NCBI GenBank assembly: GCA_028875855.1
Contig: JAGWVA010000033.1
Location: 1 to 43,861 of the forward strand
From: Paracoccaceae bacterium
Lineage (GTDB): Bacteria; Pseudomonadota; Alphaproteobacteria; Rhodobacterales; Rhodobacteraceae
Length of the DNA: 43,861 nucleotides
Direction of reading: 5' to 3'
Positions 19,967 through 40,852 of this stretch are shown one piece after another. Every line of letters begins with the position of its first letter. The first letter of the stretch is position 1. Below the pieces are notes generated by a model, which saw only the letters and a list, made by a program, of their open reading frames with translations, had not been told where the DNA came from and made no database searches. Made by a program: the position numbers and the translations under genes.

Positions 19967-20201
19967 CGCGGATTCGGACCAATCCCCTGCGGCCCGTCGC
20001 GGTGATGCCCCAGCCCTAGCGGCTGCGCCCAAGCGTCGCCGCGACGATGCGATCGGGCGTATTTTTTCGCCGCTGCGCAGAAAACCTGCGGAAACATTGG
20101 TCGGTCGCGGAAATTGGTAAGAAATCCTGTGCGATTCCTGTGGGCAGCGCCGGGCCGAGGTCGATCTTTGCGGTGTCACATCACGGGAAGGACACCCAGC
20201 A

Positions 20202-21020
20202 ATGCAGAAGATACTCGGCACTTCGAAAATCGTGTTGGCGCTCGGTCTCGCCTGTATCGGCCTTGCGACAAAGGGCGCCGCGGCGGGGGCGCTGCCTGAC
20301 AATATCGTCGCCAGCAAGACGCTGACCGTGTGCAGCGCGGTCAACCTGCCGCCGATGGAATTCTTCTCGGCCAACCAGAAGCCCGAGGGCGTGGACATCG
20401 ACCTGGCCAACGAACTGGCCGGGCGTCTGCACCTGACGACGAAGATCATCAACATCCCCTTCGCGGGTCTCATTCCCGCGCTTCTGGCGCATAACTGCGA
20501 CGTCATCATGTCGCAGCTTTTCATCAAGCCGCCGCGCCTCAAGGTGATCGATGAAATCCCCTACATGTATTCGCAGGAAGGATTCATCATCAAGGCGGGC
20601 AAGCCCAAGCTGAAGGGCCCCGAGGATCTCAGCGGCAAAAAGGCCGCGAGCGTGACCGGGACCACGGCGACCGACCTGATGAAGGCGGCCAATGAAAAGC
20701 TCGCCGCCGCGGGCAAGCCGCCGATCACGATCGTTCTTTTCCCTGAAAACACGCCGGCGCTTCAGCAGGTGCAGTTCGGACAGGTCGAGGCCTATGGCGT
20801 CGCCTATGAGACCGCGCTGTATTACGCGGCGCTGGCGCCGTCGCAGTTCCAGGTTGGGGGCGATCCCTACTTCAAGATCCTGACCGGCATCGGCGTCTCG
20901 AAGGACACGCCCGGCCTGCGCGACGCGTTGACCGAGCAGCTTGCCGCGATGCGCAAGGACGGCACCTACGCCAAGATCTTCACCAAGTGGCACATCGCCG
21001 CCGACATGCTTCCGGAATGA
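20202..21020 (+). CDS. Amino-acid-type ABC transporter substrate-binding protein
   Basis: The 272-residue protein has a Sec signal peptide (KIVLALGLACIGLATKGAAA, cleavage near residue 27) and a family 3 solute-binding fold: KTLTVCSAVNLPPMEF, GVDIDLANELAGRLH, CDVIMSQLFIKPPRLKVID and the C-terminal DGTYAKIFTKWHI. It would bind an amino acid-like or ureide solute in the periplasm for the permease and ATPase genes that follow. The ATG is preceded by GGGAAGGACACCC. The upstream 235-base gap probably contains a promoter, so this could be a separate transcription unit from the hydantoinase. Confidence 0.9.
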   Translation: MQKILGTSKIVLALGLACIGLATKGAAAGALPDNIVASKTLTVCSAVNLPPMEFFSANQKPEGVDIDLANELAGRLHLTTKIINIPFAGLIPALLAHNCDVIMSQLFIKPPRLKVIDEIPYMYSQEGFIIKAGKPKLKGPEDLSGKKAASVTGTTATDLMKAANEKLAAAGKPPITIVLFPENTPALQQVQFGQVEAYGVAYETALYYAALAPSQFQVGGDPYFKILTGIGVSKDTPGLRDALTEQLAAMRKDGTYAKIFTKWHIAADMLPE

Positions 21021-21024
21021 GGCC

Positions 21025-21786
21025 ATGCATTTCGACTGGGGCTATTTCTGGAGCCAACTCCTCACGCCCAGCGGCGCCTTCCTGCACGGTCTGTTCCTGA
21101 CCGTGCTCATGGCCGTTGCGGCCCAGCTGCTTGGGTCGATCTTCGGTCTTGGGGTGGCGCTGTGCAAGATGGCGCCCAACAGGGTCCTTCGTGCCGTGGC
21201 GGGGGGCTATATCTGGATCATTCGCGGAACGCCGCTGCTTGTGCAGATCGTCTTCATCTACACGGGGCTCGCGGCTGCGAATATCCTCAGGTTCAACGAC
21301 ATCGCGCTTCCCGGGGGGGTGATCTTCCCGGGCAGCGTGCAGGCCGGCATCCTTGCGCTTGCGCTGAACGAGGCCGCCTACATGGCCGAGATCTACCGCT
21401 CGGGCATCCTGTCGGTCGATCGCGGCCAGTTCGAGGCGGCAAAGGCCCTGGGCATGCCGCCGGCCATGATGTTTCGCTACATCATCATGCCGCAGGCGCT
21501 GCGGATCATCCTGCTGCCCATCGGCAACCAGTTCAACATCATGCTCAAGAACACCACGCTGGTCAGCGTGATCGGGGTGTCCGAGATGCTGCTTGTGACG
21601 GAAACGATCAACTCGGCAACCTTCCGCACCTTCGAGCTTTACGCGATGCTCGCGCTTTATTTCCTTTTGCTGACAAGCCTTTGGCACCTGTTCATGTCAT
21701 GGGCCGAACAGCGTCTTGCGCGCAGCAGCGACCGGCTTGCGGCGCCAAGGAAGACGCTTGCCGGCGGAAAGGAGGCCGCGGCATGA
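21025..21786 (+). CDS. Amino-acid-type ABC transporter permease
   Basis: The 253-residue membrane protein is a HisM/GlnP-type permease. It has about five membrane segments, the [17 protein letters not shown] segment near residues 71-87, and the cytoplasmic EAA loop [29 protein letters not shown] at about 115-143. Only one permease gene is present, so it presumably forms a homodimer. The start ATG at 21025 lies four bases after the binding-protein stop. The C-terminal tail is basic and its stop overlaps the ATPase start. Confidence 0.92.
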
Positions 21787-22568
21787 AACCGCCCAGAATA
21801 TCCGACGAACGCCTGATCGAACTGACCGGCATCGAGAAATGGTTCGGCAAGACCAAGGTGCTGGACGGGGTCGATTTCCACGTCCGCAAGGGCGAGGTTG
21901 TCGTGCTGATCGGCCCCTCCGGTTCGGGCAAGACCACGCTTCTGCGCTGCATCAACCATCTGGAAACGGTCGAGGCGGGGCAGGTGAAGGTGCGCGACGA
22001 GCTGATCGGCTACCGCATGCGGCGCGGGCGGCTCGTGGCCGACTACGAGCGCAACATCGCCTACCAGCGCCGCGAGGTGGGCATGGTGTTCCAGCGCTTC
22101 AACCTGTTCCCGCACATGACCGTGCTTGAGAACATCACGATTGCGCCGCTCAAGCTGCGCGACGTTCCGCGGCAGAAGGCGGAAGAAGACGCGATGGAGC
22201 TGTTGCGGAAGGTGGGTCTGCCCGACAAGGCCCATGCCTATCCCGCGCAGCTTTCGGGCGGCCAGCAGCAGCGGGTGGCCATCGCCCGCGCGCTGGCGAT
22301 GCAACCGGCGGCGCTGCTGTTCGACGAGCCGACCTCGGCGCTTGATCCCGAGATGGTGGGCGAAGTCCTCGCGGTGATGCGCGATCTTGCCGGGACGGGG
22401 ATGACGATGGTGATCGTCACGCACGAGATGGGCTTTGCGCGGCAGGTTGCGGACAGGGTCGTGGTCATGGCAAATGGTCAGGTCATCGAAGAAGGTGAAC
22501 CCGATCGGATTTTCTCTGACCCTCAGCATCCCAAGACCCGGGCCTTGCTTTCGGCGGTGCTTCACTGA
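21783..22568 (+). CDS. Amino-acid-type ABC transporter ATP-binding protein
   Basis: The 261-residue protein is a GlnQ/HisP-like ATPase. It has Walker [19 protein letters not shown] around residues 43-60, the Q-loop [18 protein letters not shown], the signature [17 protein letters not shown], Walker [19 protein letters not shown] and the switch histidine in IVTHEMGFA. An insertion after the Walker A region ([15 protein letters not shown]) is shared by a subset of this family. The start overlaps the permease stop (ATGA). With the two preceding genes it makes a complete importer. Confidence 0.94.
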
Positions 22569-22634
22569 CCCTGGCAGCCGGGTTGCGCCTTTTCGACGAC
22601 AGGTTCCCTCCAGCCCGGCTTTCAGGACGACATC

Positions 22635-24221
22635 ATGATAGAAACGGCTCTTGGTCTTCAGGCGGGGTTCACCGCCCCCCACCGCATCGCGACAAAGATC
22701 GGCATCGACGTGCTGGAGGCGGGCGGAACGGCCATCGAGGCGATGGTGGCCGCGGCGGCGGCGATCGCGGTGGTCTATCCGCACATGAACAGCATCGGCG
22801 GCGACGGGTTCTGGCTGATCAAGCGCCCGGGGCAGGCGCCTGTCGCCATTTCTGCCTGCGGGCCGGCGGCCGCCCTCGCCACGCCCGAATGGTATGCCGC
22901 GCGCGGACATGAAACGCAGCTTCCGACCCGGGGGGCACTTGCCGCGCTGACGGTTCCCGGAACGGTCGGCGGATGGCAGGCAGCGCTCGATCTCGTGCCA
23001 GCCGCCGGGCGCTGGCCGCTGGCCGATCTGCTGGCCCCGGCGATCGAGCTGTGCCGATCCGGGATCGCGGTGACGCGCAACCAGGCCGTCACGATGGCCG
23101 AGAAGATCGCGGGGCTGCGGGACGTGCCCGGCTTTGCCGAGGTCTATCTTGACGCGGGGGCGCTGCCGCAGGCGGGGGCGGTGCTTCGGCAAACGGCGTT
23201 GGGCGACACGCTTGCCGAGATCGCCGGCGCGGGTCCCGACAGCTTCTATCGCGGGGACATCGCCCGGACCCATGCGCGCTATCTGGAGGCCGAGGGAAGC
23301 CCGCTGCGTCTGGCCGATTTTGAGGCCTATCACGCCGAGACGCAGGCCCCGCTCAGGATCGAGACGTCGCACGGCACCCTGTTCAACCTTGGCGCGCCGA
23401 CTCAGGGCATGGCCGCTCTGGCGATCCTGGGGGTCTTCGACCGGCTGGGGATCGCCACGGGAGAGGGGTTCGACCATATCCACGGGCTGGTCGAGGCGAC
23501 CAAACAGGCCTTCATCCTGCGCAACCGCGAACTGGGCGATCCCTCCGCGATGCGCGCCCCGGCGCAGGAGTTCCTGACCGACGCGCGCCTTGATGCGATG
23601 GCCGCCGCGGTGGATCGGCAGAGCGCGCTGCCCTGGCCGCATCAGCCGAAGGACGGGGACACGATCTGGATGGGGGCGACCGACCGGCAGGGAACCGTCG
23701 TCAGCTTCATCCAGAGCACCTTCTGGGAATTCGGAAGCGGCCTCGTCTGCCCCACGACGGGGGTTGCCTTCCAGAACCGGGGGGCAGGCTTTGGCCTTGC
23801 GGAGGGGCCGAACAGGCTGGCTCCGGGCAAGCGGCCGTTCCACACGCTCAACCCCGCGCTGGCCGTCCTGAAAGACGGGCGCGTGATGGCCTATGGCACC
23901 ATGGGCGGCGAAGGGCAGCCGCAGACGCAATCCGCTGTTTTCACGAGATATGTGCAGTTCGGGATGCCGTTGCAGGAAGCCATCACGGCGCCGCGCTGGC
24001 TTCTGGGGAAGACATGGGGCGACGAGACGACCAGCCTCAAGCTGGAGTCGACCTTCAACCCGTCGGTGGTCGCGGCCCTGCGCGCGGCGGGGCATGCGGT
24101 CGAGCTTTTGCCCGCATGGTCAAGCACGATGGGCCACGCGGGCGCCGTGGTGCGCCACCCCGACGGTCTGGTCGAAGCGGCAAGCGATCCGCGATCCGAC
24201 GGGCTTGGCTACGCCTTCTGA
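22635..24221 (+). CDS. Gamma-glutamyltransferase-family Ntn hydrolase
   Basis: The 528-residue protein belongs to the gamma-glutamyltranspeptidase family of self-processing N-terminal nucleophile hydrolases. By alignment to the E. coli enzyme, the catalytic threonine is T343 in GDTIWMGATDRQG, followed by SFIQSTFWEFGSG and QNRGAG. The N-terminal half has GGTAIEAMVAAAAAIAVVYPHMNSIGGD. No Sec signal peptide is seen, unlike the periplasmic GGTs, so it may be cytoplasmic. It follows the amino-acid importer by 66 bases and may cleave an amide of the imported compound rather than glutathione. Confidence 0.85.
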   Translation: MIETALGLQAGFTAPHRIATKIGIDVLEAGGTAIEAMVAAAAAIAVVYPHMNSIGGDGFWLIKRPGQAPVAISACGPAAALATPEWYAARGHETQLPTRGALAALTVPGTVGGWQAALDLVPAAGRWPLADLLAPAIELCRSGIAVTRNQAVTMAEKIAGLRDVPGFAEVYLDAGALPQAGAVLRQTALGDTLAEIAGAGPDSFYRGDIARTHARYLEAEGSPLRLADFEAYHAETQAPLRIETSHGTLFNLGAPTQGMAALAILGVFDRLGIATGEGFDHIHGLVEATKQAFILRNRELGDPSAMRAPAQEFLTDARLDAMAAAVDRQSALPWPHQPKDGDTIWMGATDRQGTVVSFIQSTFWEFGSGLVCPTTGVAFQNRGAGFGLAEGPNRLAPGKRPFHTLNPALAVLKDGRVMAYGTMGGEGQPQTQSAVFTRYVQFGMPLQEAITAPRWLLGKTWGDETTSLKLESTFNPSVVAALRAAGHAVELLPAWSSTMGHAGAVVRHPDGLVEAASDPRSDGLGYAF

Positions 24222-24277
24222 CCAAGCGACGCCGCGCACGGCGCCATGCCCTCGGGACACTGGCCGGGGCAGGGCGG

Positions 24278-24306
24278 GGGCGACCGGACATCTCCGTCGG
24301 TCGCCC
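24278..24306 (+). terminator. Terminator-like hairpin after the GGT-family gene
   Basis: Arms GGGCGACCG (24278-24286) and CGGTCGCCC (24298-24306) are exact complements around an 11-base loop, 57 bases after the stop. There is no T-run, so termination would have to be rho-assisted or weak. Confidence 0.45.
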
Positions 24307-24415
24307 GTCTTCGTCGCGGCACAAGGGGGCGTCTTCCCCTTCCGGTGATTGCGCCGATCACGCGCTGTCACAAAAAAATTCACGAAGTTCTCCGCTCACG
24401 AAATACTCGTCAGGG

Positions 24416-24444
24416 TTGACTGTGAGAAATTTCTCATCCATCTT
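24416..24444 (+). promoter_or_regulatory. Candidate promoter with an operator between -35 and -10
   Basis: TTGACT (24416-24421) and CATCTT (24439-24444) are 17 bases apart. The perfect 14-bp palindrome TGAGAAATTTCTCA (24423-24436) lies exactly between them, where a bound protein would block RNA polymerase. It reads toward the receiver-like gene at 24563. The -10 element is weak. Confidence 0.5.
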
Positions 24445-24562
24445 GGGTAACAGGATGTGATGCCGCTGCCACCGGCCAGATAGAAACTTCCTGTCAGGAA
24501 ATGGTGAAGCGGCATGGCGTGGACCTAAGCGGTCTTGTCGTGCGGAAGTGGTGGAGGCGATA

Positions 24563-25048
24563 ATGATGCATCAGAATGTGATTGCCGATATTTCCTCCCT
24601 GCGCCATCAGCGGGTGTCGCGCAATGGATGCGCCGCGTTGCTGGGATACAAGGATCAGGATTACAGCGTGATAAGGGCTGCAATTCAGGACGACCTTGGT
24701 CTGAAACTGACGATTTGCGACGATTGGGGAAAAGTAACGGAGCGGCTGGAATTTCTCGCGACCCGAATGGATTTCGCCATTTTCGACCTGAGCAGGATGA
24801 CGGACCCCGATGATATTGTTTCCTTCGGTTTCGAACTCCGCCGCCGTGTGCCGCGCTTGCCCGTGATCTTCATGCTTGAAGATATTCAGCGCGACGATCT
24901 TTCCTGCGAGCGCAGCGCGATTTGCGATGCCACGCTGAAATTGCCGCTTCGCAAGGCGACGCTTTTGCTGGGTATCGATGCCGCCATTTACAATCGCGAC
25001 CATGTGCTTTCGTGCCGGCCTTGGGAAAGGCTTCGCGCGGTGCGCTGA
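24563..25048 (+). CDS. Degenerate response-regulator-like protein, function unknown
   Basis: I do not recognise this 161-residue protein as a named family. Its middle resembles a receiver fold: a strand FAIFD ending at D75 (the phospho-acceptor position), a helix ELRRRVPRLP, a strand PVIFML (96-105 region) and a strand ATLKLPL with K126. The usual acidic pair near the N-terminus and the Ser/Thr after the fourth strand are not evident, so it would be a pseudo-receiver. It has no output domain. GGAGG at five bases before the ATG at 24563 supports the start; ATG 24566 is a close alternative. Its base composition is less GC-rich than its neighbours'. Confidence 0.6.
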   Translation: MMHQNVIADISSLRHQRVSRNGCAALLGYKDQDYSVIRAAIQDDLGLKLTICDDWGKVTERLEFLATRMDFAIFDLSRMTDPDDIVSFGFELRRRVPRLPVIFMLEDIQRDDLSCERSAICDATLKLPLRKATLLLGIDAAIYNRDHVLSCRPWERLRAVR

Positions 25049-25174
25049 TGCGCGGGATGTGACCGGCGCGCCTGATGCGGGGTGTCCGACGCGGCCCCTC
25101 CTCAGGCCATCTGTCGGAACAAAGGGACAAATTTCTCTGTCCCGCCACAGATCTGCTGCGCGATCGGTCGTGAT

Positions 25175-25188
25175 TTGATCTGGATCAA
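25175..25188. promoter_or_regulatory. FNR/CRP-family binding site (FnrL-like box)
   Basis: TTGATCTGGATCAA matches the FNR consensus TTGAT-N4-ATCAA at every defined position. A -10-like TAAATC lies at 25212-25217, placing the box near -41.5 of a start at about 25223, the class II activator position. The downstream gene is the XRE regulator at 25312. Dnr/NnrR-type NO regulators share this consensus and cannot be excluded. Confidence 0.75.
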
Positions 25189-25311
25189 ATTCCGCGCAAC
25201 GCTTTTGCCGCTAAATCCATACAAGGAGTACTGTCTGCTTGCCTTGACCCGTTCCGATCGGTAATTTTGCGTTATGTGGTTACCACTCAAGCGAAATTCA
25301 GGAGATATGGG

Positions 25312-25683
25312 ATGGTCTGCCCGCGGATGGAGCTGGACGGTGGCGTCAACGAGAGGTTTCGCAGGAACCTCCATCGCTTCATGCTGGAACGGGGCTTCAC
25401 TGCAGCATCGCTGTCGCGCGCGGCTGGCCTGAATTCCCGCGCGGTCAAGGACATCGAAGAGGGCAAGGCGCAAAGCCCGCGGCTGACCACGGTCATTGCG
25501 CTTGCGCGCGCCCTCGATGTTACCGAGGCGGAGCTTTTGGGTCTTCAGCCTTGCCCGGATCTGTCGAACGCGCTTCACGAATTTCTTCGAGGCTTCGACC
25601 TACGTCAGCAAGAAAATCTCTTAGCTCTGCTTCGGAATATCCTTGAGGGTTCACCGGAAGCCGCTGCGCTGCAGACAAAATAG
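25312..25683 (+). CDS. XRE-family helix-turn-helix transcriptional regulator
   Basis: The 123-residue protein has an XRE/Cro-C1 type DNA-binding domain at about residues 17-77: NLHRFMLERGFTAASLSRAAG, then NSRAVKDIEEGKAQSPRLTT and ALARALDVTEAELLG. A short helical tail (LSNALHEFLRGFDLRQQENLL) probably dimerises. The ATG at 25312 is chosen because AGGAGA lies six bases upstream; an in-frame TTG at 25267 is less likely. A perfect FNR box lies 130 bases upstream. Two similar palindromes at 24423-24436 and 25852-25865 surround the gene and could be its operators. Its 3' end overlaps an antisense ORF. Confidence 0.82.
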   Translation: MVCPRMELDGGVNERFRRNLHRFMLERGFTAASLSRAAGLNSRAVKDIEEGKAQSPRLTTVIALARALDVTEAELLGLQPCPDLSNALHEFLRGFDLRQQENLLALLRNILEGSPEAAALQTK

Positions 25684-25792
25684 CCCAAAGCATAAGCGGG
25701 TCGTCCTGCAAGAGCGTGATGATTTCACGCAACTGATCTTCGCGGAAATTGTCCTTTTGGAATTCTGGGCGATCGTCATCGTATCCGTTCAT
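25520..25792 (-). CDS. Small hypothetical protein overlapping the XRE gene antisense
   Basis: The 90-residue frame reads as a plausible protein: an acidic, asparagine/aspartate-rich start (MNGYDDDRPEFQKDNFRED), an amphipathic middle (LREIITLLQDDPLMLWAILSAAQ) and a second helix (EAELRDFLADVGRSLEEIREA). I recognise no family. It overlaps the last 164 bases of the XRE gene on the opposite strand. The ribosome site is poor (AAGG touches the ATG), but TATAGT about 15 bases upstream could give a nearly leaderless transcript. It may equally be a chance shadow, although its helical pattern and the AT-rich upstream segment argue for it. Confidence 0.4.
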   Translation of the reverse strand: MNGYDDDRPEFQKDNFREDQLREIITLLQDDPLMLWAILSAAQRLPVNPQGYSEAELRDFLADVGRSLEEIREARSTDPGKAEDPKAPPR

Positions 25793-26155
25793 CCTTAATA
25801 CCCGATACTATACTTTAGATTATTCCTATAGGCATTGAAATTTGCTGGCAATGAGAAACTTCTCATGGTCTTTCGCGGGTGGAGCGTTTCTCCCCAAGGG
25901 CTGACTTAGAAAGGGAGATTTATTCCATTTCGGTCATGGCTTTGGTGAAAGTCTCTCGTGCTGCGTTGCGGCAAGTCAACCCTGAACCTTGGGCCTGTCG
26001 GCCCGCGGTCGCGTCGCCGCTTCGGCCTCGGGGGTGATCTGCGCTGGCTGTGCAAGTCGGGATCATGGACGCTGACCGGGGCGTCTTCACGCCTTCAGGT
26101 GATCCGGATGGGTGTTGCCAGCGTAAACTTGCACAGGGGCAATGCGGAGGGCGAG
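25793..26155. other. Intergenic region with second palindrome
   Basis: An AT-rich stretch (about 25793-25850) is followed by the palindrome at 25852-25865 and then by ordinary GC-rich sequence up to the peroxidase gene. I see no convincing gene here. The segment from 25958 is open in the frame of the peroxidase but carries no family sequence before 26156. Confidence 0.5.
25852..25865. promoter_or_regulatory. Second TGAGAA-N2-TTCTCA palindrome
   Basis: TGAGAAACTTCTCA has six-base exact arms around AC, extended by A and T outside. It matches the palindrome at 24423-24436 in every arm base. It lies 60 bases upstream of the leftward small ORF and 290 bases before the peroxidase gene. Confidence 0.55.
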
Positions 26156-26695
26156 ATGCGTGCGCTTGTAACGGCTGTGTTTCTGGCAATTTTTCCGGTT
26201 TCGGGTATGGCTGCCGCGCCGCAGCCGGGAAATGGTCTTGACGCGCCATTCCAGTCCATCGACGGTGGCACGCTCGATGTCGCGCAATGGGCCGGGCATC
26301 CCGTGCTCGTGGTGAATACCGCGTCGATGTGCGGATATACGCCGCAATACAAGGGGTTGCAGGCGCTTTATGACACGTATCGCGCCCGTGGCCTTGTCGT
26401 GTTGGCCGTCCCGTCCGACGATTTCAACCAGGAATATGCGACGGCCTCGCAGGTCAAGACCTTCTGCCATGTGAACTACGACCTGACTTTGCCCATGACG
26501 GATATCACCCATGTGCTCGGTCAGGATGCGCATCCGTTCTACAAATGGGTCAGGGCGCAAACCGGGTTTGTGCCGCGCTGGAACTTCAACAAGGTCCTGA
26601 TTTCGCCCGATGGCCGCGTCGCTGCGACGTGGCGCGAGGGCACCGATCCGATGGCGCAGGACGTCCGCAAGACCGTCGAGAAGTATCTGCGCTAG
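26156..26695 (+). CDS. Periplasmic glutathione peroxidase-family protein
   Basis: The 179-residue protein has a Sec signal peptide (MRALVTAVFLAIFPVSGMAAA) and a thioredoxin-fold peroxidase domain. The peroxidatic cysteine is C59 in NTASMCGYTPQYKGL, in the place of selenocysteine, and the conserved W142-N143 lies in PRWNFNKVLI. The usual Asn-Gln of the NQF motif reads as DDF here, as in some bacterial members. It would reduce hydroperoxides, probably with thioredoxin-like reductants. GGAGG lies five bases before the chosen ATG. The open frame reaches further upstream but without a signal peptide. It seems to be a single-gene unit. Confidence 0.88.
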   Translation: MRALVTAVFLAIFPVSGMAAAPQPGNGLDAPFQSIDGGTLDVAQWAGHPVLVVNTASMCGYTPQYKGLQALYDTYRARGLVVLAVPSDDFNQEYATASQVKTFCHVNYDLTLPMTDITHVLGQDAHPFYKWVRAQTGFVPRWNFNKVLISPDGRVAATWREGTDPMAQDVRKTVEKYLR

Positions 26696-26900
26696 CCCCG
26701 GGCCGGCGGAACGCCTTGGCCAAGGCGGCGGCACGTGGCGGAAACCCTCGGTGATTTGAACGTCACGTCCCAGCCATCCGCGGCGCGATTGCGACAGTCG
26801 GCCCCAATCATCTAGTGGCTGAACCATTCCCCTACCCAAATTGTGGCGCGCCCCCTATAGTGCCGGTGGATTTCGTGAACCGGCCCCCGAGGGAGAGAGC

Positions 26901-39407: not shown

Positions 39408-39707
39408 ATGTCGAGACGCAGACGGAGCAGAAACGTGTCGGAACAAGGTGCGATTGACCGGATCGGAGTGTTGCCAGACTGGCCGCTGATGCTGTCGGAA
39501 CGGCAGGCAGCTGAATATGTCCAATTGGCGGTTGCTGCTTTTCTGCGCGCCGTCGCTGCAAGCGAATTACCCGCTCCCCGATTGCTCGCCGGCAAGAAGC
39601 GATGGTCAAGGCTCGAAATCGAGAACCACCTTCACAATGGGGGTGGCCTTCTTGAGACAGATTATGACCCAATTGCAGCCTCCATTGAACGGGCGTTCAA
39701 GTCATGA
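39408..39707 (+). CDS. AlpA-like / excisionase-type small DNA-binding protein
   Basis: The 99-residue protein has a winged-helix pattern of the MerR/AlpA/excisionase kind: LMLSERQAAEYVQLAVAAFLRAVA at about residues 27-50, then LPAPRLLAGKKRWSRLEIENHL, where the RW/GKKRW turn forms the wing. The N-terminus is strongly basic (MSRRRRSRN). Such proteins direct excision by, or regulate, the neighbouring integrase. The ATG at 39408 follows GACGAAA, a weak ribosome site. The stop overlaps the integrase start (ATGA). It is the first gene of the island. Confidence 0.75.
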   Translation: MSRRRRSRNVSEQGAIDRIGVLPDWPLMLSERQAAEYVQLAVAAFLRAVAASELPAPRLLAGKKRWSRLEIENHLHNGGGLLETDYDPIAASIERAFKS

Positions 39708-40852
39708 AAGTTCAGATCAAGGGGGTATACTGCAAGCGGAAGGCGCTTAAATCGGGCGAGGTCCGGGTCTATTACTATCACAGGGCAACCAACAGTCGGC
39801 TACCTAACGATCCGACATCGCCCGAGTTTTTCCAAAAGGTGCGACAGCTAAACAAGCAGCCGATCGGCACGGCACGCGCAGAGAGGAGCTTCTCCGACCT
39901 TGTCAGACACTACAGGTCTTCCATCGGCTACCGCGAACTGGCTGTGGCCACGCGGAAAGAATACGATCGGCACATCAAATACGTTGAGCCCATGCTGGGT
40001 AGCTTCCTGGTTGCGCAAATCCAGCGAAAGCACCTCGAGCAGATCATGGCAATGTATGCTGAGATGCCAACGCTTGCCCGCTCTATTGGCCGGACAATGT
40101 CCCTCTTGTTTTCCTATGCGTTGGATAAGCTCCAGTGGATCGAGGCAAATCCGTTCCTGAGGATGCAAAATCAGCGGGTTCGGCGCCAAAAAGAAAGTGG
40201 TCAAAGGCCCTATACCGAAGCTGAAATCGCCCGATTTCGGCAGGCGAACCCCCTTGGCTCGCGTGAACGACTCGCTTTTGAGATCGCTCTCGTGACGGCA
40301 CTTCGGATCGAGGACCTCGTCAACGTACCCGCCGCCGAGATGTTGGCCGAGACGATCCCGATCCGAGTCAAGAAGACCGGCGAAATCATTTCGGTGCCAG
40401 TCGGTCGCCAGATGCGCGATGCTTGGCTCGCATGGGAGGAAACCCGGAAGAAAGCGGGGGGCGGAGCCAGCCGCTTCGCCGTCTGTTGCCTTGACGGATC
40501 CTCTCTGAACAAATCCACGCTTAGCCACGAAATGCTCGATGCTTACAAAAGGGCGGAGTTCGACGAAGGGCAGCGCACACATGCTCTGCGCTACACAGCT
40601 TGTATTCGGTTGTTGGAGGCTGGGTACGCCTTCGGAGACATCGCCGAGCATACCGGGCACAGGATGGCGTCGATGGCCGCAGAATACTGCCGAAAGCGCC
40701 GCAACGCTGTTGAACGTGGCATCTCCTTGGAGGCAGTGGAAGAAATGCATGAGAAGCGTCTTGCAGCGTCTCTCTTGCATCGTTCAGGCGACGCAGAGCA
40801 GTCCGACGTGCCCGGTGGATCGGCTTCGTTCAAGACGCGGCGTCTCAATTGA
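39704..40852 (+). CDS. Tyrosine recombinase / integrase of a genomic island
   Basis: The 382-residue protein is a phage-type site-specific tyrosine recombinase. Catalytic residues appear in order: R201 in VTALRIEDL, a lysine near K224 in RVKKTGE, H293 and R296 in THALRYT, H319 in HTGHR, and the nucleophile Y328 in AEYCRK. The N-terminal half carries a core-binding SAM-like domain (SDLVRHYRSSIGYRELAVATRKEY). It lies 503 bases from the tRNA-His 3' end, the standard set-up for an element using that tRNA as attB. The start is set by overlap with the AlpA-like stop. Confidence 0.92.
   Translation: MKVQIKGVYCKRKALKSGEVRVYYYHRATNSRLPNDPTSPEFFQKVRQLNKQPIGTARAERSFSDLVRHYRSSIGYRELAVATRKEYDRHIKYVEPMLGSFLVAQIQRKHLEQIMAMYAEMPTLARSIGRTMSLLFSYALDKLQWIEANPFLRMQNQRVRRQKESGQRPYTEAEIARFRQANPLGSRERLAFEIALVTALRIEDLVNVPAAEMLAETIPIRVKKTGEIISVPVGRQMRDAWLAWEETRKKAGGGASRFAVCCLDGSSLNKSTLSHEMLDAYKRAEFDEGQRTHALRYTACIRLLEAGYAFGDIAEHTGHRMASMAAEYCRKRRNAVERGISLEAVEEMHEKRLAASLLHRSGDAEQSDVPGGSASFKTRRLN

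Follow-up and report, generated by a model that had tools for sequence, protein, structure and literature searches.

The patch at positions 24416-25865 of the window (the whole 43,861-nucleotide stretch of contig JAGWVA010000033.1, from a Paracoccaceae bacterium, that was analysed) is probably a chromosomal form of a phage-type immunity region, with proposed control of two palindromes, O1 and O2, by the XRE protein P0002; we put the probability of this at roughly 0.7. A repressor gene bracketed by operators is a known layout of phage immunity regions, and the best reading of the cassette is a CI/434-like repressor accompanied by its operators. Like phage repressors of the CI/434 type, it combines an XRE/Cro-CI HTH protein with 14-bp palindromes of a single type that flank the gene, one of them inside a promoter. 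Unlike them, it has no divergent cro-like HTH gene and no phage gene among the flanking genes tested (ggt, gpx, nrdR, and ribD), its O1 and O2 are each a single site, with 1.4 kb between them, and its predicted target is a receiver-like gene. The analysis provides an operator sequence, and hence testable targets, for a phage-type repressor family of Rhodobacterales for which no described binding site was found in the open literature searched, and it links an unnamed receiver-like protein family to such a repressor at four chromosomal loci.

Sites and genes of the cassette

The putative operators O1, TGAGAAATTTCTCA (24423-24436), and O2, TGAGAAACTTCTCA (25852-25865), for which no strand is assigned, share both six-base arms, and the window holds no other exact match. 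The patch contains the receiver-like ORF P0001 (24563-25048, plus strand), the XRE ORF P0002 (25312-25683, plus strand), and the small ORF P0003 (25520-25792, minus strand). O1 lies between the -35 (TTGACT, 24416-24421) and -10 (CATCTT, 24439-24444) elements of the P0001 promoter (24416-24444, plus strand, spacer 17), in the register TTGACTG-TGAGAAATTTCTCA, that is, TTG-N4-palindrome. On the two sites, the three ORFs, and the placement of O1 in the spacer, the sequence-only reading was borne out, although the -10 is weak, matching the consensus at 3 of 6 bases, and a consensus promoter scanner did not flag the promoter at 24416-24444. O2 is found 59 bases upstream of the P0003 start and shows no clear promoter in register. 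A possible weak operator half-site, GGACAAATTTCTCT (25125-25138, three mismatches), stands upstream of the XRE gene and may be due to chance.

By itself, the palindrome pair argues only weakly for operators, because shuffled sequences yield like pairs and because the motif occurs at background frequency across the family. Of 300 dinucleotide shuffles of the window, 22 contained a same-arm 6-N2-6 pair within 1.5 kb, and 140 contained one when any gap of 0-8 was allowed. Summed over the table of 247 other family genomes, the motif has 27 sites versus 34 for the reversed pattern; a family-wide regulon is ruled out by this background frequency. The window's own genome (3,862,434 bases) has three exact copies (O1, O2, and C85:42458-42471) and none of the reversed control pattern, and a wider pattern gives seven sites there versus none for its control. 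By eye, no in-register promoter accompanies the third copy; a nearby ORF on the minus strand looks HTH-like by eye, yet lacks a Pfam match. Together with 46504-46517 on the same contig, G000:C85:42458-42471 makes up two more sites of the type TGWGANNNNTCWCA, 4 kb apart, and contig C85 also bears pilus or secretion-like ORFs. The weight of the operator claim comes from homologous loci and not from the pair itself.

P0002 (123 aa) is an XRE repressor-like protein with a Cro/CI HTH and a short tail. It matches HTH_26 (E 3.9e-11), HTH_31, and HTH_3 of Pfam above cut-off as well as repressor/regulator families of PHROGs, and its nearest PDB sequence is 1sq8, ‘dh434’ (E 0.001). A paralogue in the same genome (L007/L079) is 56% identical over residues 12-113 and has the same recognition stretch, RAVKDIEE; across the relatives of P0002, LNxRAVKDI around the recognition helix is well kept. 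These relatives came from scanning a four-row alignment over genome_contigs (84,980 species), which gave nine, and over viral contigs, which gave four; L108, L109, and L110 duplicate L107, L103, and L104. No close relative was found in six other genomes of the genus, two of which gave weak HTH matches, and there was no match to P0002 among phage and plasmid records or to the L099 XRE protein among plasmid records. A tree of 11 XRE proteins has a single supported fork, uniting L103, L104, and L107, so that phage descent of P0002 finds no support in the tree.

P0001 (161 aa) is classed as a degenerate single-domain receiver-like protein on the basis of its AlphaFold2 model and PDB matches. It has no match in Pfam or PHROGs and a weak NCBIfam match to a response regulator (E 0.15). 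The model shows the five-strand alternating alpha/beta topology of receivers (mean pLDDT 85.5), and its best PDB matches are mostly response-regulator receivers at query TM-scores near 0.55, with a few other alpha/beta folds scoring about as well. The phosphorylation motif of receivers consists of an acidic pair after strand 1, an Asp after strand 3, a Thr/Ser after strand 4, and a Lys after strand 5. P0001 has Asp75 after strand 3, a residue conserved in 90% or more of 11 rows, as well as Lys126; it has no acidic pair directly after strand 1, and Leu105 replaces Thr/Ser, leaving the site incomplete. The protein may act without phosphorylation.

P0003 (90 aa) runs convergently to the XRE gene, whose 3' end it overlaps. 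By eye, a positional counterpart of similar pattern is present at 20 of 21 XRE loci, the window included (the exception is L007, whose stop was placed one base off), and such counterparts occur in both prophage and chromosomal forms; the frames were selected visually out of mechanical lists, and some of them begin with TTG or GTG. In a codon test that left out the stretch overlapping the XRE gene, the 36 remaining codons of P0003 have G+C counts of 22, 8, and 23 at codon positions 1, 2, and 3. Across 15 loci (14 phage-type plus L105), the sequences differ from one another at codon positions 1, 2, and 3 in 698, 540, and 816 of 1274 comparisons each, with G+C of 0.56, 0.35, and 0.56 over 221 codons. 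This codon-position pattern is a coding signature, and it draws attention to a small conserved gene lying tail to tail with the repressor gene and overlapping it. As a query, P0003 found no match in genome_contigs or in the 247 other genomes; against the L099 ORF it gave E 0.003 for that single comparison, mostly within the overlap.

An FNR-type box, TTGATCTGGATCAA (25175-25188), an exact TTGAT-N4-ATCAA, precedes the XRE gene; its centre is about 41 bases upstream of a possible transcript start, one that TAAATC at 25212-25217 would suit. A box with up to one mismatch is also contained in 43 of 100 shuffles of the window. The proposal of oxygen (FNR) control of the repressor has the exact box in its favour; against it, this is one box only, and none with zero or one mismatch was found upstream of ten other XRE loci (for one of them only 78 bases were scanned). 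FNR control is a reasonable inference from a single locus.

Sites beside related XRE genes

Within 1 kb of the XRE gene, palindromes of the type TGWGANNNNTCWCA, the wider form that takes in O1 and O2, are present at 6 of 11 loci outside the window (L098, L099, L101, L103, L104, and L107) and at none of 46 control loci (Fisher p 1.3e-5). The controls, with a mean length of 3.1 kb, were fetched via receiver-like proteins, weak HTH matches, and distant HTH proteins. The effective number of loci with a site is smaller than six, because L103, L104, and L107 form one clade. No exact site lies within 1 kb at the other five loci (L079, L100, L102, L105, and L106), two of which, L100 and L102, have an adjacent receiver gene. 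Receiver homologues away from an XRE gene have no upstream site (0 of 21 at up to one mismatch, from 29 loci fetched). The pattern TTGMCNNTGWGANNNNTCWCA occurs at 20 places in 18 of 394 genomes, versus one place for its control; an adjacent XRE gene of the P0002 family is known only for the window's place and for one of two in G052. Among palindromes with arms of five bases around a centre of four, the one that most of the 11 relatives share within 1 kb is TGTGA-N4-TCACA (4 loci, 10 sites; the runner-up has 2 loci and 2 sites).

In prophages, sites of this type bracket the XRE gene. L101, L103, and L098 carry phage genes (integrase, excisionase, primosomal protein, exonuclease, and HNH endonuclease), and the contigs of L107-L110 are viral. 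At all five of L098, L101, L103, L104, and L107, the XRE gene is followed by a pair of sites spaced 30 bp apart; imperfect first sites are common in these pairs, and L101 has an imperfect second site as well. Every second site has the form TTG-N4-palindrome followed by a -10-like sequence, which is the register of O1 in the window. At L101 and L103 the first downstream operator stands about 35 bases before the start of the small ORF, compared with 59 for O2.

Searching viral DNA with the array pattern alone gave 15 stretches, 14 of which hold an XRE gene of the P0002 family, 90 to 936 bases from the array; because four of the 14 were known beforehand, the confirmation amounts to 10 of 11 new stretches. 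In L169, the sole exception, the array falls inside an ORF. The reversed array pattern gave one stretch, without such a gene, and an array with TGWGA/TCTCA arms gave two stretches, neither with one. At all 14 array loci an upstream site, which is outside the search pattern, lies 50-115 bases before the chosen XRE start, in 10 of them at -72 to -74. These counts overstate independence, because several of the viral stretches duplicate one another and because L103, L104, and L107 belong to a single clade. A divergent HTH gene accompanies the XRE gene at all 14 array loci, and also at L101 and L103, as judged by a profile model built from four of these same sequences. With TTGACNNTGAGANNNNTCTCA over viral contigs, the matches listed (at least 80 loci) include one weak HTH match, 1 kb off. 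The contig of L101 (JAQGOK010000217.1) is filed under a Chthoniobacter MAG, and its repressor, operators, and divergent HTH gene resemble those of Rhodobacterales prophages; it is perhaps misbinned.

A different layout is found on chromosomes. With a profile model over 32 loci, the receiver-like family adjoins the XRE gene in the window and at L099 (Roseinatronobacter sp. HJB301), L100 (Lutimaribacter sp. EGI FJ00013), and L102 (Rhodovulum sp. isolate SAT37); it was not found at any phage-type locus among the 32. A fifth match, L080, is a paralogue elsewhere in the genome, and neither L079 nor L105 shows the pairing. At L099, L100, and L102 the receiver gene stands behind the XRE gene; in the window it stands in front. 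At L099, the receiver promoter reads TTGAAAA-TGTGTTAAAACACA-TGG-TATAGA, with the palindrome in the spacer in an O1-like register, and a second site, TGAGAATTTTCACA, stands behind the XRE gene. By eye, L100 has a half-symmetric site only, and L102 has none that is clear. The divergent HTH gene was not found by its profile model in the window, L099, L100, L102, L079, L105, or L098, the last having too little upstream DNA for its absence to be judged. A tyrosine integrase gene (PF00589; PHROGs integrase) is located at 39704-40852 of the window, 14 kb from the cassette.

A possible switch and its alternatives

These comparisons suggest that the targets of P0002, which presumably binds as a dimer, are 14-bp palindromes of the type TGWGANNNNTCWCA. 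Because O1 lies between the -35 and -10 of the P0001 promoter, a repressor bound there would block access of RNA polymerase and so silence P0001. O2, through which P0002 most likely controls the P0003 region, is placed like the downstream operators of same-family prophages, in front of P0003, whose transcript would run toward and into the end of the repressor gene. Repressor on O2 might thus shield its own gene from convergent transcription, and, since transcription of P0003 heads toward that gene, a freed O2 could mean less repressor, which would make a two-state switch possible. The FNR-type box may raise or lower the repressor at low oxygen. Of the simple model proposed earlier, in which the XRE protein binds both palindromes and represses its neighbourhood, the role as binder and that of O1 as a promoter operator have gained comparative support; repression would follow only by inference.

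A more far-reaching idea, which we consider possible but rather doubtful, is that several Rhodobacterales have taken over a prophage immunity switch and use it as an oxygen-gated regulator with two states, acting on a receiver-like adaptor. The repressor would have been kept along with the operators that bracket it and the overlapping convergent small gene, and the divergent cro-like gene would have been lost; the degenerate receiver gene would have come under operator control, with FNR control of the repressor here and convergent transcription as a second arm. If the switch works in this way, phage decision circuitry would be reused for host regulation.

It is unlikely, though deserving of attention, that another regulator binds the palindromes, with P0002 a bystander or one of two binders. 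Proteins of the CRP/FNR type also bind arms of the TGTGA/TTGAT type, and the RpoD-linked XRE paralogue has the recognition stretch of P0002; moreover, the seven wider-pattern sites in the genome exceed the cassette's own need. However, the viral site array is tied to the P0002-family gene in 14 of 15 stretches, the paralogue has no exact site within 1 kb, and receiver homologues away from XRE genes lack sites altogether. The patch might also be what is left of a prophage immunity region, in decay and without function today. The phage-type repressor, operators, and convergent small gene would suit such an origin, as would the integrase gene 14 kb away, the lack of P0003 matches in 247 other genomes, and the fact that DNA upstream of nrdR in four genus genomes has no similarity to window 20001-26760. 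Yet the genes tested on the flanks are ggt, gpx, nrdR, and ribD, the XRE-receiver pairing recurs in three other genomes, and all three ORFs are open; decay is quite improbable. That O1 and O2 are simply a chance pair accords with the shuffle counts and the family-wide background frequency, but the recurrence of the motif type and of the promoter register at homologous loci renders this highly improbable. The reading as a chromosomal form of a phage-type immunity region is the one we prefer.

Relation to described systems

The sequence-only reading knew of no described system with this make-up. This claim stands for the receiver pairing, as the open literature searched gave no account of these palindromes or of an XRE-receiver pair, but not for the operator-bracketed repressor. 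Prophages with xre and hth genes, too, have been studied, in Phaeobacter inhibens (PMC13345283). As set out in the accessible part of that source, these prophages have an xre-luxR-luxI operon and a counter-oriented hth gene. Compared by layout, they resemble the prophage relatives found here in having an XRE gene with a counter-oriented HTH gene, and differ in that xre is in an operon with luxR and luxI; no operator sequence is given in that part of the source. On the same partial basis, theirs is the closest studied layout.

Caulobacter XRE regulators and the phage protein TgrL are host and phage XRE proteins with common binding sites (PMC10688885); going by the portion of that description available, which shows no motif sequence, their neighbourhoods are other than that of the P0002 cassette. 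XrpA of Cereibacter sphaeroides, in the available portion of its description, is like P0002 a chromosomal Xre regulator in a related group, but it represses ctrA and chpT and is expressed by RpoN3 (PMC11999139). The CI-like repressor of Paracoccus phage vB_PyeM_Pyei1 (MK291445.1) is 41.9% identical to the L107 repressor over residues 3-76, and its gene is longer, with 699 bases.

Two further contexts of the family were observed. In two genomes, an RpoD-like ORF, recognised as such by eye, is immediately followed by an XRE gene of the P0002 family, namely at L079 (G000:C10:49101-49412, the paralogue of P0002) and in Roseinatronobacter (L099:3971-4327). In Jannaschia formosa, a Cro/CI HTH (HTH_26, residues 589-643) is located inside a ribonucleotide reductase large subunit (L106:2222-4744), where it precedes the TSCPD domain of the reductase, and HTH matches inside long open frames (833-878 aa) are present in six further family genomes (L115-L118, L124, and L126).
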